43,107 nucleotides of DNA from Bacteroidia bacterium (lineage in GTDB: Bacteria; Bacteroidota; Bacteroidia; Flavobacteriales; Flavobacteriaceae). The stretch is from assembly GCA_030429835.1 (NCBI GenBank), contig JAUIGC010000009.1, positions 1-43,107 on the forward strand. The letters run 5' to 3'. Below the pieces are notes generated by a model. It saw only the letters and a list, made by a program, of their open reading frames with translations, was not told where the DNA came from and did no database searches. Positions 33,693-39,313 of the stretch are shown piece after piece (position 1 is the stretch's first letter; every line of letters starts with the position of its first letter). A program made the translations under genes and the position numbers.

Positions 33693-36473
33693 TTAAATCA
33701 ATTTTTCCTTTAGGTATTTTGCAGTGAAGGATTTGGTGTTTTTAATCACTTCCTCGGGTGTTCCCTCGGCTAGTAATTGTCCGCCGTTTTCTCCACCTCC
33801 AGGCCCCAAATCGATGATATAGTCCGCACATTTGATGAGCTCAATGTTATGCTCAATAACCACTATGGAGTGTCCTTTTTTAATTAAGGCATTAAACGAT
33901 TTCAATAATTTTTGGATGTCATGAAAATGAAGTCCGGTTGTGGGTTCGTCAAATATAAAAAGGGCCTTATCCTTAGTAGCTCCCTTTACCAAGAAGGACG
34001 CCAGTTTTATGCGTTGAGCCTCACCTCCGGATAGGGTAGAGGAGGACTGCCCAAGGGTTACATAGCCCAAACCAACATCCTGTAAGGGTTTTAATTTACC
34101 TACAATTTTTTTCTGCTCCCCAGCTTCAAAGAAATCTATGGCATCATCGATGGTCATGTTCAAGATATCATCTATGTTCTTATTGTTGAAAGTAACCTCC
34201 AATACATCTTTTTTGAATCGCTTTCCACCACAGGTATCACATTCCAGATGCACATCGGCCATAAACTGCATTTCCACAGTAATTTCTCCTTCTCCTTTGC
34301 ATTTCTCGCATCTGCCTCCGTCCACATTAAATGAAAAGTGTTTGGCTTGATAGTTCCTTATTTTGCTCAGCTTTTGGCTTGCGAAAAGGTTCCGTATTTC
34401 ATCATAGGCCTTTATATAGGTAACGGGGTTGGAACGGGATGAGCGACCTATAGGGTTTTGATCCACAAATTCCACATGCTTTATATGCTTGTATTTTCCG
34501 TTCACCGAACTAAACTGCCCAGCTTTTTCTCCATAACCGCCGGTTTCCTTAAGAATTATGGGATACAACAACTTTTTGACCAAGGTACTTTTACCACTTC
34601 CCGATACGCCCGTTACTACCGTCAACATATCCAAGGGAAAGGTAATATTGATATTTCTTAGGTTGTTTGCCCTACAACCTATTATTTCAATATGATTTTT
34701 AGAAGTACGCCTCTCTTTGGGTACCTCGATATTCATGGTTCCGTTAAGGTAGCTGGCAGTCAGCGAGGAGGATTTCAGGATTTCCTCCAATGTGCCCTGG
34801 GCAACAATGTTTCCCCCATGGGTGCCAGCCTCAGGACCAATATCTATCACTTCATCTGCAGCTTTCATAATATCCTCATCATGTTCCACTACAATTACGG
34901 TATTGCCTAAATCCCTTAAGGATAGCAATACCTCGATTAAATTTTCTGTATCCTTGGGATGAAGCCCGATACTAGGTTCGTCCAAAATGTACATAGAACC
35001 TACAAGGCTACTTCCTAGGGAAGTGGCCAAATTAATTCGTTGGCTCTCCCCCCCAGATAGCGTATTGGACTTTCTATTAAGGGTAAGATAGTTGAGTCCC
35101 ACTTTGTCCAAGAAACCCAAACGGGTATTAATTTCCTTCAATAATCTATCCGCTATTTTAGCGTCATGATCGGACAGTTCCAAAGCTTCAAAAAATGGAA
35201 TAAGGCGTTCAATGGGGAGACCTACCAGATCTGAAATGGATTTACCTCCAATTTTTACATAATCCGTTTCCGTTCGCAGTCGTTTACCATGGCAGACATT
35301 GCACTTTGTCTTTCCCCTATAACGGCTGAGCATTACCCTGTTCTGGATTTTATAACTTTTCTCCTCAAGGGTCTCGAAAAACTTGTGTAGCCCAATAAAA
35401 TGTTCGTTACCGTCCCAAACCAATTTTTTCTGTGCATCAGTTAGTTCATACCAAGGTTTGTGAATAGGAAAATCAAATTTATAGGCCGCATTGACCAGTT
35501 GGTCTCGATACCAGCCCATACTTTCACCACGCCAAGGAAAAACGGCATTCTCATAAATTGAAAGCGCTGTATTGGGAATTACCAAATCTTCATCAATCCC
35601 TATGACATCTCCATATCCTTCACATTTAGGACATGCCCCGTAGGGATTGTTAAAACTAAATAAGTGAACGTTAGGCTCTAGGAACTGCATGCCATCCAAC
35701 TCAAATTTATTGCTGAAAAGGCGTTGTTCGGAATTTGACAACTCTTCAATAATGCACTCCCCCTTGCCTTCAAAAAAGGCCGTATCTACTGCATTGGCCA
35801 ACCTATTGTAAAAATCTTCATCATTCTTGGTTATGATTCTGTCGATGACAAGGTCAAATTCCTTTCCAATATCCTCAGGGGCCTGGTCTATTCTGAGAAC
35901 CTTCCCCTGATATTTAATTCTGGCATACCCTTGTTTAGAAAATAATTGAAGCGATTTTAGCGAATCCCTATCCTCCCTTATGGTTATGGGAGCGAGGAGC
36001 AGCAGTTTTGTATCTGGATCGAAGGTCTTAACGTATTCAATAACATCCGATACGGTATTTTTTTTAACCTCATTACCTGAAATTGGTGAAAATGTTTTTC
36101 CAATACGGGCATACAGAAGTTTTATATAATCATATATTTCAGTAGTGGTACCTACGGTGGACCTTGGGTTGGTAGAGTTTACCTTTTGCTCAATGGCAAT
36201 GGCGGGTGCAATACCTTTTATATAGTCGACTTTGGGTTTGTCCAATTTTCCCAAGAACTGCCTGGCATATGAGGATAGACTCTCAACGTATCTCCTTTGT
36301 CCCTCGGCAAAAAGGGTATCAAAGGCCAAACTGGATTTTCCAGATCCAGACAATCCCGTTATGACCACAAGCTTGTTTCTGGGGATTACGACATCTATAT
36401 TTTTAAGGTTGTGCAGCTTGGCACCTTTTATGATAATGTTTTTTTTTGGATTTATCTGGGATAATACGGTCAT
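33693..36473 (-). CDS. uvrA: Excinuclease ABC subunit A
   Basis: 926 aa, close to the usual length of UvrA. It finds DNA lesions with UvrB during nucleotide excision repair and has two ABC ATPase modules. Walker A sites are [12 protein letters not shown] (near residue 40) and [11 protein letters not shown] (near 625). ABC signatures [12 protein letters not shown] and [12 protein letters not shown] and Walker B segments [10 protein letters not shown] and [10 protein letters not shown] are intact. Zinc-binding CxxC pairs occur at [24 protein letters not shown] and CDTCGGKR, the full set. The start ATG (36473-36471) gives [14 protein letters not shown] candidate -7 box lies 18 bases upstream. 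No uvrB or uvrC nearby. Confidence 0.97.
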
Positions 36474-36499: not shown

Positions 36500-36568
36500 C
36501 AATATGGCATTTAGCAAAAAGTTTAAATGTCATTTTTCTAAAAGAGGCCGGGATTATTTCACATTTTT

Positions 36569-36597
36569 TTTGGAGTATTTATTTTTTTATATATTTG
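36569..36597 (+). promoter_or_regulatory. Candidate promoter for the first sigma-factor cassette
   Basis: TTTG (36569-36572) and TATATTTG (36590-36597) are separated by 17 bases. It lies 120 bases before the sigma ATG, leaving a leader of roughly 110 bases. Confidence 0.5.
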
Positions 36598-36717
36598 AAT
36601 CTCGTAAAAACAAGAAGCCTATAGCCAAAAATTACTTTTGAAGTTAGAAAGAAATTAAAAAAATCCTAAGCCCACAAAGCGTTAGGACCCCAATTTTAAC
36701 CCACAAAAGTAAGGCTT

Positions 36718-37299
36718 ATGATTCAGGCACTTGAAGATTCCCAACTAGTAAAAGATTATATGAACGGTAATGAAAGGGCCATTGAGGTTCTTATTCACCG
36801 TCACAATGCGCGCTTAACCGGCTTCATTTATTCCAAAGTAGGAGACCGTGAACTGACAGAGGATATTTTTCAGGATACCTTTATGAAGGTTATCCGTACA
36901 CTCAAGAGAGGTGCGTACAATGAGGAAGGTAAATTTTTACCTTGGGTCATGCGCATCGCTCATAATCTCATCATAGATCATTTTAGAAAGAGCAATAGAA
37001 TGCCTATGTACGACGCCACGGAAACATTCAATGTTTTTTCCCTAATGGGTGATGAAAAACTGAATGCCGAAAGTCAATTGATCAAGGAGCAAATTGATTC
37101 GGACTTGGCGAGGATGATCAAGGAATTACCGGAGGACCAGCAAGAGGTTTTGCAAATGCGTCTATATAAGGAAATGAGTTTTAAGGAAATTTCCGAAAAT
37201 ACGGGGGTAAGTATCAATACTGCACTAGGCAGAATGCGATATGCCCTAATAAACCTTAGGAAGTTGGTTGAGGCCAATAGTATAGTTTTAACGAATTAA
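36718..37299 (+). CDS. ECF-type RNA polymerase sigma factor, copy A
   Basis: 193 aa. Region 2 is seen as VLIHRHNARLTGFIYSK and TEDIFQDTFMKVIRTL, with the -10-recognition helix FLPWVMRIAHNLIIDHFR (about residues 73-90). A linker (91-120) precedes region 4, LPEDQQEVLQMRLYKEMSFK and GVSINTALGRMRYALINLR, the helix-turn-helix for the -35 (here -33) element. It directs RNA polymerase to a subset of promoters. Unlike most ECF genes it has no anti-sigma membrane gene next to it; instead a 47-aa microprotein gene follows after 72 bases. It is 141 of 193 residues identical to copy B by ungapped hand alignment, with region 4 nearly identical, so the two may share promoter targets. Confidence 0.94.
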   Translation: MIQALEDSQLVKDYMNGNERAIEVLIHRHNARLTGFIYSKVGDRELTEDIFQDTFMKVIRTLKRGAYNEEGKFLPWVMRIAHNLIIDHFRKSNRMPMYDATETFNVFSLMGDEKLNAESQLIKEQIDSDLARMIKELPEDQQEVLQMRLYKEMSFKEISENTGVSINTALGRMRYALINLRKLVEANSIVLTN

Positions 37300-37342
37300 T
37301 TGGTAACAGGTCGAGTGGATCTACTATATTTAATTCGTTGAC

Positions 37343-37358
37343 GTTTCTTAAGTGAAAC
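37343..37358 (+). promoter_or_regulatory. GTT-N10-AAC element before microprotein A
   Basis: GTTTCTTAAGTGAAAC is a partial palindrome 13 bases before the microprotein ATG. The element in copy B matches 11 of 16 bases at nearly the same distance. It may be an operator or a small RNA structure. Confidence 0.4.
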
Positions 37359-37371
37359 AAAAACGAAGAAT

Positions 37372-37515
37372 ATGGAAAAAATTTACCAGACCAAAACAAA
37401 AACCAACAAAACAGTATCTGCGAAACCTGAAACAATTCAGTTTTTGTTGAATTATTCAAAGTCCCTTAAAGTTACAGAAGCCAAGGGCATAAAATTTGAA
37501 AGTAATTTGAACTAA
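37372..37515 (+). CDS. 47-aa microprotein A, partner of sigma copy A
   Basis: 47 codons, ATG to TAA. It starts MEKIYQ, has a Lys/Thr-rich N-terminal third with no hydrophobic helix, then a core PETIQFLLNYSKSL (residues 19-32) that looks like one amphipathic helix, and ends FESNLN. Reality of the gene is supported by the second copy: the product of copy B has the same length, aligns without gaps, and shares 19 residues, concentrated in the first five positions, the core helix (P-x-T-I-x-F-L-L-x-[YF]-S-K-x-L) and the F-E-x-x-L-N end. The intervening positions vary. A strong terminator follows 24 bases after the stop. The product is cytosolic by composition. Anti-sigma or co-factor activity is a reasonable guess only. 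Confidence 0.78.
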   Translation: MEKIYQTKTKTNKTVSAKPETIQFLLNYSKSLKVTEAKGIKFESNLN

Positions 37516-37539
37516 CAAAGTTATTGAACATAAAAACAG

Positions 37540-37573
37540 AACCCTGGGGATTATTCCCAGGGTTTTGTTTTTT
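37540..37573 (+). terminator. Intrinsic terminator closing cassette A
   Basis: AACCCTGGG (37540-37548) pairs with CCCAGGGTT (37556-37564) around a 7-base loop, then TTGTTTTTT. A 9-bp perfect stem with a T-run. Confidence 0.92.
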
Positions 37574-37842
37574 ATCGAATAAAGCAATCATAGTTGGCGG
37601 TTGCGACATCTTCACAAGGGTCAAACCTTTTTCATAGGGCCCAAAGTCAACTAATAAAACACCTAATTATTGTATAAAAAATAGGTTTTACAGGTTTCAC
37701 ATCAGAAAAGGGCATTTTTACAACATACTTTTTATCAAGGGGGGTGATTTATCTAGTTTTATCTCAGAATTGAACGACTAATTACAATTAATTAATAACC
37801 AAATCAGGATCCCCACCCTGTCACCTAATGAAAGTAACTAAT
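37574..37842 (+). other. Intergenic leader of cassette B
   Basis: No open frame stands out here. A near-match to the -7 box (TAGTTTTA, 37754-37761) lies 82 bases before the sigma ATG. The 3' part holds AGGATCCCCA (37806-37815) and AAAGTAA (37831-37837), which match the leader of cassette A in content and spacing. The first 150 or so bases show nothing that I recognise. Confidence 0.5.
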
Positions 37843-38424
37843 ATGGAATTACAGATTGAAGATTCAGAACTAGTAAGAGATTATATCAGTGGCGACGAAA
37901 AAGCCTTGGAAATTCTTATCCATAGACATAATCAGCGTATTACGAGCTTTATTTATTCCAAAGTATTGGACCGGGACGTAACGGAAGACATCTTTCAGGA
38001 TACCTTTATTAAGGTAATCAAAACCCTCAAAAAGGGGAACTATAGTGAGGAAGGTAAGTTTTTGCCTTGGGTTATGCGCATCGCCCATAATCTTATAATC
38101 GATCACTTTAGAAAGAACAAGAGAATGCCAATGTTCGAGGGGAACGAAGATTTTAATATTTTTTCTGTAATTGGGGATGACAAATTAAATGCCGAAAAGC
38201 AGTTGATAAAGGACCAGATTGATACGGATTTGAGGGAATTGATAGAGGAACTTCCCGATGATCAAAAAGAAGTTTTGATCATGCGTATCTACAAGGATAT
38301 GAGCTTTAAGGAAATTTCAGAAAACACGGGAGTGAGTATAAATACAGCTCTTGGAAGAATGCGATATGCATTGATCAACCTAAGGAAAATCATTGAAAAA
38401 CATAATATCGTACTTACCCATTAA
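37843..38424 (+). CDS. ECF-type RNA polymerase sigma factor, copy B
   Basis: 193 aa from the ATG at 37843; an upstream in-frame ATG (37828) would add five residues. The inner start is preferred because it aligns with copy A at the first residue and because both starts are preceded by AAAGTAA plus five bases. Region 2 (TEDIFQDTFIKVIKTL, FLPWVMRIAHNLIIDHFR) and region 4 (LPDDQKEVLIMRIYKDMSFK, GVSINTALGRMRYALINLR) are intact. Residues 71-90 and 161-180 are completely identical to copy A. Main differences are in the first 20 residues and in the linker (91-110). A 47-aa microprotein gene follows after 70 bases. Confidence 0.94.
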   Translation: MELQIEDSELVRDYISGDEKALEILIHRHNQRITSFIYSKVLDRDVTEDIFQDTFIKVIKTLKKGNYSEEGKFLPWVMRIAHNLIIDHFRKNKRMPMFEGNEDFNIFSVIGDDKLNAEKQLIKDQIDTDLRELIEELPDDQKEVLIMRIYKDMSFKEISENTGVSINTALGRMRYALINLRKIIEKHNIVLTH

Positions 38425-38466
38425 TCAGTCTAGAAAAACAATAAACAATATTTCTTTTGTAGTTGC

Positions 38467-38482
38467 GTTAATTTAATGTAAC
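38467..38482 (+). promoter_or_regulatory. GTT-N10-AAC element before microprotein B
   Basis: GTTAATTTAATGTAAC lies 12 bases before the microprotein ATG and matches the copy A element at 11 of 16 positions, including both outer triplets and the inner TG. Confidence 0.4.
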
Positions 38483-38494
38483 AACAATGGAAAT

Positions 38495-38638
38495 ATGGAA
38501 AAAATTTACTCTAATTATCAGGAAAGAACCGAGTTTAAAAAGGTTTGCCCAAAAACAATCAACTTTTTATTAAGCTTTTCCAAGGCGCTGTATGACGTAA
38601 AGTACAAGGACCTGGAGTTTGAAACATATTTAAACTAA
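38495..38638 (+). CDS. 47-aa microprotein B, partner of sigma copy B
   Basis: 47 codons, ATG to TAA. The first five residues (MEKIY) and the first 15 coding bases are identical to microprotein A. The core PKTINFLLSFSKAL (residues 19-32) and end FETYLN repeat the shared pattern. A Cys at position 18 is specific to this copy. Another ATG at 38487 opens a different frame of 28 codons and is rejected because only the 38495 frame is conserved between copies. The gene ends 4 bases before a terminator. Composition predicts a small soluble protein. Confidence 0.78.
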   Translation: MEKIYSNYQERTEFKKVCPKTINFLLSFSKALYDVKYKDLEFETYLN

Positions 38639-38640
38639 AA

Positions 38641-38669
38641 AAAGACCCGTTTAACGGGTCTTTTTTTTA
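38641..38669. terminator. Terminator shared by cassette B and the endonuclease III gene
   Basis: AGACCCG (38643-38649) pairs with CGGGTCT (38655-38661) around TTTAA, followed by a T-run; the reverse strand reads into a short T-rich stretch. The stem overlaps the last codons of the minus-strand nth gene. Confidence 0.9.
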
Positions 38670-39313
38670 TCATAATATTCATTAATGACCGCTTTCCTTC
38701 CAATGGTCTTGGTGATGATATCTTTTTCAAGATCCCAACCTCTGGCCGGTGAATAGTCCCTGCCATACCATATGATTTGAAGATGAAGGTCGTTCCACAA
38801 AGTTTTGGGAAACAATCTTTTGGCATCTTTTTCGGTCTGCACAACATTTTTTCCGTTAGAAAAGCCCCATCTGTACATGAGTCTGTGGATATGGGTATCC
38901 ACAGGAAAGGCTGGAATGCCAAAAGCCTGGGAAACCACAACGCTAGCAGTTTTGTGGCCAACGGAAGGTAATTCCTCCAGTAAGTGAATATCTTGTGGGA
39001 CCTCCCCATCGTATTTTTCTATTAGAATTTTTGAAAGTCCGTAGATTCCTTTGGATTTCATCGGGGACAGCCCTACGGGTTTAATGATTTCCCTTATTTC
39101 CTCAACACTCATTTTTACCATATCAAAAGGATTATCCGCTTTTTCAAAGAGAATAGGAGTTATTTGATTGACCCTAACATCGGTACTTTGAGCGGACATA
39201 AGCACCGCAATTAAAAGCGTATATGGGTCTTTATGCTCCAAGGGAACGGGAATGGTAGGATAGAGTTCCTGTAATTTGGAAATTGCGAAAGATACCTTTT
39301 CTGCCTTCGTCAT
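38651..39313 (-). CDS. nth: Endonuclease III (DNA glycosylase/AP lyase) lacking the Fe-S cysteines
   Basis: 220 aa. Base-excision repair of oxidised pyrimidines. The helix-hairpin-helix ELPSVGHKTASVV carries the catalytic Lys (in GHKTA), and FPVDTHIHRLMYRWG carries the catalytic Asp, both intact. The usual C-terminal C-x6-C-x2-C-x5-C cluster loop is absent: the region after IWYGRDYSPARGW has no cysteine. The protein should thus fold without a 4Fe-4S cluster, as in some other lineages. The last residues (KKKTR) are encoded by the stem of the shared terminator. Convergent with cassette B and divergent from the peroxiredoxin gene. Confidence 0.93.
   Translation of the reverse strand: MTKAEKVSFAISKLQELYPTIPVPLEHKDPYTLLIAVLMSAQSTDVRVNQITPILFEKADNPFDMVKMSVEEIREIIKPVGLSPMKSKGIYGLSKILIEKYDGEVPQDIHLLEELPSVGHKTASVVVSQAFGIPAFPVDTHIHRLMYRWGFSNGKNVVQTEKDAKRLFPKTLWNDLHLQIIWYGRDYSPARGWDLEKDIITKTIGRKAVINEYYDKKKTR

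Follow-up and report, generated by a model that had tools for sequence, protein, structure and literature searches.

A 47-residue companion of a Flavobacteriaceae sigma factor as a candidate miniature anti-sigma factor

The window considered here, a stretch of 43,107 nucleotides from a genome of the Flavobacteriaceae (contig JAUIGC010000009.1, assembly GCA_030429835.1), carries two successive cassettes. Each is composed of a gene for an extracytoplasmic function (ECF) sigma factor and, directly downstream, a gene for a protein of 47 residues, called the microprotein below. Comparative analysis shows that the microprotein open reading frame (ORF) is a real coding gene under strong purifying selection, and that sigma factor and microprotein were duplicated as a unit, their copies diverging together. 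Each cassette probably combines an ECF sigma factor with its own mini anti-sigma factor acting on sigma region 2 alone, a reading in which we infer binding and inhibition from sequence comparisons and structure models.

A duplicated cassette with a conserved microprotein gene

Both cassettes are read from the forward strand. The upstream sigma gene (sigma1, 36718..37299) and the downstream one (sigma2, 37843..38424) encode 193 residues each. An earlier reading of the DNA letters alone, hereafter the sequence-only reading, had described them as ECF sigma genes with 141 of 193 residues identical, and the coordinates and the ungapped count agree with this description. Both products match the Pfam models of sigma70 region 2 (PF04542, 1.2e-14 for sigma1 and 2.8e-14 for sigma2) and region 4 (PF08281, 8.4e-11 and 2.4e-11) as well as TIGR02937, all above cut-off, as befits ECF (group IV) sigma factors, and the family profile aligns along RpoE and AlgU. 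With NF009166, the best-scoring NCBIfam equivalog, the two products reach 155 and 154 bits and so miss the cut-off of 206. An in-frame ATG at 37828 would give the downstream sigma factor 198 residues instead of 193. The microprotein genes (micro1, 37372..37515, and micro2, 38495..38638) follow after spacers of 72 and 70 nucleotides, and the matching ends claimed for their products are seen in both (MEKIY...FE..LN). The two microproteins share 19 of 47 residues in an ungapped comparison, with an alignment score 11 standard deviations above 1000 shuffles.

The sigma factor is a core gene of the Flavobacteriaceae, detected at E <= 1e-40 in 290 of 298 genomes and 183 of 187 genera of the family. 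A survey of the class found it in 143 of 158 genomes (E <= 1e-45), and one of the phylum in 118 of 247. Two copies are present in the genome of the window and in 34 of 35 relatives of the same genus, the remaining relative (83% complete) having none; the same survey found one copy or none in genomes from other families of the order. By hand count, at least two copies occur in about 56 of the 298 family genomes.

Within the family, the tiny downstream gene is a constant companion of the sigma gene, as had been proposed. In a first collection of 271 sigma genes (at least 240 bits, four duplicate loci excluded), 249 were followed by a microprotein gene (E < 1e-3), and none of the 22 others belongs to the Flavobacteriaceae. 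Since this collection was biased towards close relatives, 30 single-copy genera and 20 low-scoring genomes of the family were added. The microprotein was found in all 30 of these hand-picked genera; among the low-scoring genomes, 13 contain it clearly, two weakly (L238 and L245) and five lack it (L243, L248, L250, L252 and L253), several of the latter having small genomes. In the companion tally, all 64 sigma genes from 32 loci of the genus of the window are accompanied, as are 213 of 218 from other Flavobacteriaceae, 58 of 65 from other Flavobacteriales, 54 of 99 from other Bacteroidia and 14 of 15 from other classes. This tally counts sigma genes in loci rather than independent genomes (a few contigs are present twice, for example L114/L022, L115/L020 and L111/L200), drops matches under 180 bits except in the group of other classes, and scores as none the relatives missed by the profiles, probably L303 for example. 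Absent or broken frames had been named in advance as fatal to the proposal, and the frame is missing after only 5 of 282 family sigma genes.

A six-frame search of 34 chosen whole genomes found microproteins solely beside sigma genes, in the 21 sigma-bearing genomes, and their number equals that of the sigma genes in 20 of these. The exception, G129, has three sigma matches and one microprotein genome-wide, that is, extra sigma copies without a companion. Among the 13 genomes without a detected sigma factor, 12 gave nothing in this search and one gave a partial match with an inner stop (E 0.005), none of which is credible.

The coding status of the ORF is apparent from its substitution pattern. 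Pairwise estimates (NG86) over 32 loci of the genus give a median ratio of nonsynonymous to synonymous substitution rates (dN/dS) of 0.039 for micro1 (62 usable pairs of 465) and 0.079 for micro2 (102 of 496), the pairs not being mutually independent; the corresponding sigma medians are 0.025 and 0.018. These values lie far below the ratio near 1 that would have spoken against a gene. The pooled pN/pS ratios are 0.096 and 0.119, and third positions dominate among variable sites (30/22/45 at codon positions 1/2/3 in micro1, 19/12/38 in micro2). The protein is composed of a conserved N-terminal tag (MEKIY), a variable linker, a segment PETIxFLLxYSKSL and a conserved tail (FExxLN), whose asparagine occupies the last column in 93% of 337 aligned sequences. 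In 30 diverse members M1, S29 and N47 are invariant and Y5, T21, F24, L26 and K30 nearly so. A hydropathy scan found no hydrophobic segment in the microprotein.

The proposal that the module was duplicated as a unit is borne out by the trees and by the microproteins themselves. The sigma tree comprises 242 sequences, namely 45 upstream copies, 45 downstream copies and 152 single ones, six of which lie near contig ends where a second copy may be hidden. One clade of 48 sequences (support 0.77) unites all 45 downstream copies with two upstream copies (L060 and L080) and a single one; a clade of 95 (support 0.63) contains every one of the 90 duplicates plus five singles. Deep supports are moderate. 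The remaining upstream copies are split between a clade of 35 (support 0.997) and a group of 8. The microproteins were compared over 36 duplicated loci, one of them representing the genus of the window, and the nearest microprotein of another genome is the same-position copy in 69 of 72 cases. The simplest reading of the tree is a single old duplication followed by a small number of losses and possibly, in two of the genomes, by local replacement; most simply, it would predate many genera. The upstream copies of L060 and L080 could result from gene conversion or from a fresh local duplication, and their nested position makes only the number of duplications less certain.

Probable relationship to class I anti-sigma factors

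On the best model, the microprotein would be the remnant of a class I anti-sigma factor, connected to it by a chain of homology through proteins of intermediate size. In wider relatives, the slot downstream of the sigma gene is occupied by proteins of 57-70 residues with the same C-terminal half as the microprotein. Farther out are found soluble proteins of 72-90 residues with an additional N-terminal part (LLxxLYGE...L..D..L..E). In other classes and in one locus of the Bacteroidia (L323), the slot encodes proteins of about 150-280 residues, mostly with a hydrophobic segment, that of L216 exceeding 500 residues. A hydropathy cut-off assigns a membrane segment to 10 of the 15 loci from other classes, L213, L217 and L221 falling just below it and L212 clearly below. 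Profile comparison of 129 nonredundant microproteins (41-53 residues) with eight soluble relatives (72-88 residues) gives Prob 94.7 and P 5.6e-8. A profile of the two window microproteins and twelve relatives of 59-70 residues, compared with the same eight, gives Prob 97.3 and P 1.6e-11, and the eight soluble proteins compared with eleven long, mostly membrane relatives give Prob 97.3 and P 2.5e-11. None of 100 column-shuffled controls reached any of these three scores. Nine of twelve long relatives match the NCBIfam 'anti-sigma factor' model NF052375 (E 0.0064 to 2.2e-11); among the eight soluble ones, three match a putative anti-sigmaE model (best 0.0033) and one matches NF052375 (4.4e-4). 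Neither Pfam nor NCBIfam gave anything above chance for the microproteins, and nothing relevant turned up when profiles of the soluble and the long relatives were searched against PDB sequences. The sequence-only reading had cast the microprotein as an undescribed partner of the sigma factor: the companion is real, and the apparent chain of homology to class I anti-sigma factors removes its status as an unrelated novelty.

Two side observations concern this slot. In L194 it is occupied, 136 nucleotides past the sigma stop, by an ORF of 542 residues, transposase-like by eye, at the place of a gene of about 64 residues in relatives of the family label f17. In the outgroup proteins of L214 (2617-3426) and L216, the anti-sigma or helix-4 unit appears by eye to be repeated, twice and about six times respectively, and these proteins could be multivalent sigma binders.

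Predicted structures are consistent with this origin. The model of one soluble relative of 81 residues (L315; mean predicted local distance difference test score, pLDDT, 88.5) contains four helices (7-14, 20-32, 34-52 and 59-74). Of the seven PDB entries that Foldseek matched to it, six hold a class I anti-sigma domain (RsiW, RskA, RseA, ChrR and MucA twice) in complex with an ECF sigma factor. For this member, then, the class I four-helix fold is predicted, and by extension for the longer relatives. Residues 12-36 of the microprotein align on residues 52-76 of L315, its last helix, and a helix-4-like segment can be placed at about residues 17-36 of micro1. AlphaFold2 predicts for micro1 a single helix at 19-46 (mean pLDDT 73.8, about 93 over residues 21-30; predicted template modelling score 0.37).

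The microprotein shares with the class I domains (RseA, ChrR, RskA, RsiW, MucA) the position beside an ECF sigma gene, the helix-4 segment and, through its soluble relative, the predicted four-helix fold with weak PDB matches. It differs from them in its 47-residue form, devoid of helices 1-3 and of any membrane or sensor part: one helix is predicted, and the helix-4 segment alone aligns. In class I complexes, helix 4 packs on sigma regions 2.1/2.2 and blocks binding to the beta-prime clamp, and helix 1 contacts region 4 (PMC7406223). By analogy, the microprotein would act like the region-2 half of a class I anti-sigma factor, outside the definition of the family since helices 1-3 are gone.

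Covariation between sigma factor and microprotein modestly points to the same interface between helix 4 and regions 2.1-2.2, as supportive evidence rather than proof. In 376 sigma-microprotein pairs, the couplings of sigma positions 19, 26, 60 and 30 with microprotein positions 29, 25, 28 and 17, respectively, rank no lower than sixth in each of the four settings. For one choice of register, 26-25, 60-28 and 30-17 lie at most one residue away from common contacts described in the literature. Such contacts account for three of the top five couplings in three settings and for two in the fourth. Corrected for the choice of register, permutation p values are 0.003-0.017 when the five strongest couplings are considered and 0.010-0.020 with the ten strongest. 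This published-contact test is the only stable one, with the larger set and the top 5 or 10 alone. A general enrichment of couplings in regions 2.1-2.2 is not significant (p 0.20-0.31), nor is a diagonal test (p 0.38), and a search for diagonal bands of any kind yielded p of about 0.03 in some settings and no signal in others. By parsimony, the pair 19-29 shows four co-changes (p 6e-7, uncorrected for 6721 tests; rank 16). When microproteins were swapped between the copies of 69 duplicated loci, 26-25 and 19-29 were still top couplings; they are therefore a signal of the whole family and indicate no copy-specific pairing.

Proposed mechanism and rival explanations

The microprotein probably descends from a class I anti-sigma factor that was anchored in the membrane and whose gene directly followed the sigma gene. 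The membrane part would have been lost in the Bacteroidia, with at least one exception (L323), a direction of reduction that is itself conjectural. Towards the Flavobacteriaceae, helices 1-3 would also have been lost, leaving a cytoplasmic protein of 47 residues. Its helix would lie antiparallel on sigma regions 2.1/2.2 and compete with the beta-prime clamp helices of RNA polymerase, so that the sigma factor is restrained. If co-transcribed, the microprotein would impose a threshold on the sigma factor or dampen it, without relaying a membrane signal.

Several results weigh against this interpretation. Compared directly, the microproteins and the long relatives show no clear similarity (Prob 0.2-1.6, P 0.032-0.3); intermediates were collected for this reason, and the homology rests on them. 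All NCBIfam anti-sigma matches are below the curated cut-offs, and neither the microproteins nor those longer relatives that were scanned match any Pfam family above cut-off. None of the L315 Foldseek matches is individually significant (E 1.5-7.8), so the case lies in the consistency of the list, and the model of the microprotein reaches good confidence only near residues 21-30. The contact test weakens to p 0.076-0.103 for the top 20 couplings of the 376 pairs, and ranges from 0.007 to 0.56 over 24 settings with 337 pairs. Pair 30-17 reflects mostly one clade-level shift (five co-changes, p 0.011, rank 1498 of 6721) and is outranked by other pairs, including some in sigma region 4 and the linker. 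In PMC7406223, each of the three classes of ECF anti-sigma factor under comparison contacts region 2 as well as region 4, the rule proposed there being that control needs both contacts, and one helix alone may bind too weakly for inhibition. The sigma factor is also kept without a recognisable companion in all seven matched genomes of family f18 (L195-L197, L207, L224-L226) and all five of family f19 (L198, L202, L208, L209, L230). Outside the Flavobacteriales, 45 of 99 sigma genes of the class have no companion relative, which implies that the sigma factor can live without one. Finally, in the genus of the window the spacer is conserved at the nucleotide level about as well as the microprotein gene (0.751/0.760 versus 0.738/0.818).

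The last point would suit a conserved stretch that is mainly an RNA element, formed by the spacer of about 70 nucleotides and the 3' part of the transcript, with an incidental ORF. As nucleotide identity fails to separate gene from spacer, the coding argument is carried by the codon pattern. With dN/dS of 0.04-0.08, a third-position bias and amino-acid conservation across distant families, an RNA element is very improbable. That the ORF is a functionless, decaying anti-sigma remnant is scarcely credible: the protein is indeed truncated relative to its kin and was not found in 5 of the 20 low-scoring family members, several with small genomes, but both copies are under strong purifying selection and the gene is present after 277 of 282 family sigma genes. 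A binding partner that helps instead of inhibiting, by stabilising the sigma factor or aiding its assembly with the core polymerase, is an unlikely alternative deserving some attention. It would account for the loss of the helix 1-3 region, which holds the contact to region 4, for the persistence of the microprotein in nearly all family loci without a sensor part, and for its co-occurrence with the sigma factor in the genomes searched. The retained segment, however, covers in known complexes the face of region 2 that binds the beta-prime clamp, and should hinder assembly. The small protein might also be co-transcribed and act elsewhere, for instance on RNA polymerase or a regulon target, its contact with the sigma factor having disappeared. 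To our knowledge, neither the FExxLN tail nor the MEKIY tag has a counterpart among known anti-sigma contacts or domains, which would fit such a role; linkage, co-duplication, homology to anti-sigma-like proteins and covariation with region 2 make it decidedly improbable.

A further question is why two cassettes were retained. The sequence-only reading had invoked separate regulons, and the fact that both copies were kept in many genera after an old duplication does indicate that they are not redundant. In the 36 duplicated loci, however, the most similar parts of the upstream and downstream sigma factors are precisely the promoter-contact regions, 4.2 (96% identity) and 2.3-2.4 (87%), versus 0.83 in region 2.2, 0.81 in region 2.1, 0.70 in the linker and region 4.1 and 0.58 at the N-terminus (58-83% outside the promoter-contact regions), the microproteins being at 0.47. 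Promoter recognition should thus overlap, and separate regulons are not favoured; we regard them as quite unlikely. It is more likely that the two copies differ in expression or control than in their set of promoters. The mini anti-sigma reading would then be completed by two pairs with nearly the same promoter-contact regions, in which divergence of the N-terminus, linker, region 4.1 and microprotein probably provides different control over overlapping promoters.

Genomic context, known systems and significance

The leaders of the two cassettes were said to share motifs, which holds for two of the three elements considered. The motif TTTCACAT occurs on the forward strand at 36557..36564 and again at 37695..37702, both kept in the genus, and AAAGTAA, mostly conserved, stands closely 5' of the ATG in both leaders. 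The element TATATTTG (36590..36597, forward strand) fits the consensus TAnnTTTG of the Bacteroidota housekeeping -7 box, as given in PMC9723704, and within the genus this box is conserved before copy 1 only, hinting at different promoters for the two cassettes. On direct reading of the forward strand, a hairpin followed by a T run (37541..37563) is a likely terminator of cassette 1, a terminator scan reporting its stem on the minus strand only. A second hairpin with a T run (38641..38663, forward strand), absent from the entries of that scan, lies 3' of micro2 before the convergent gene. Since a hairpin of this kind stands behind both microprotein genes, the cassettes look like separate units of two genes each. 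The flanking genes, assigned by eye and both on the minus strand, are uvrA-like on the left (33693-36473) and endonuclease III-like on the right (38651-39313).

Among known systems, CnrY is likewise a short anti-sigma unit, whose last helix binds sigma region 2 in the manner of class I helix 4. It is membrane-bound and applies two helices to regions 4 and 2, whereas the microprotein has one predicted helix and no hydrophobic segment. The EcfO-Reo pair and related anti-sigma factors of the Bacteroidales also associate an ECF sigma factor with an anti-sigma factor, in the same phylum. According to PMC13114119, Reo spans from the cytoplasm to the cell surface; nothing comparable exists at the window locus, and this pair was rejected as a model. 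SigP of Porphyromonas gingivalis (PGN_0274), which participates in the PorX-SigP control of type IX secretion, is also an ECF sigma factor of 193 residues (PMC4800418). It is absent from the sigma factors with a listed downstream anti-sigma candidate in what is accessible of PMC7712824, and it has a single homologue in F. johnsoniae (PZQ89414.1) according to PMC10951265; its agreement with the sigma factor described here is limited to length and single-copy status. The sigma factor of the window type was not identified in the accessible part of a transcriptome study of F. psychrophilum. A literature search covering titles and the beginnings of abstracts, with most subscription papers outside its scope, found no description of a sigma-linked microprotein.

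Class I domains have a mean size of 101 residues, and the published catalogue discarded domains under 50 residues (PMC7406223). Such a filter would hide a protein of 47 residues, and more proteins of this kind may be hidden beside other ECF sigma factors. A small ORF that matches nothing in Pfam or NCBIfam, next to a sigma gene that is nearly universal in the Flavobacteriaceae, becomes a concrete and testable candidate regulator. As a tentative picture of the whole, the shrinkage may have been selected stepwise, from a membrane protein to a free gripper of sigma region 2 that would govern a core sigma factor of the family, possibly as an assembly factor, with two such pairs side by side in lineages like the genus of the window. 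A protein acting on region 2 alone, if confirmed, would show the minimal sigma-binding unit and break the two-contact rule of PMC7406223. The series of sizes, from membrane proteins through soluble four-helix proteins and proteins of about 60 residues to the 47-residue form, would constitute a natural truncation series for the contacts required.

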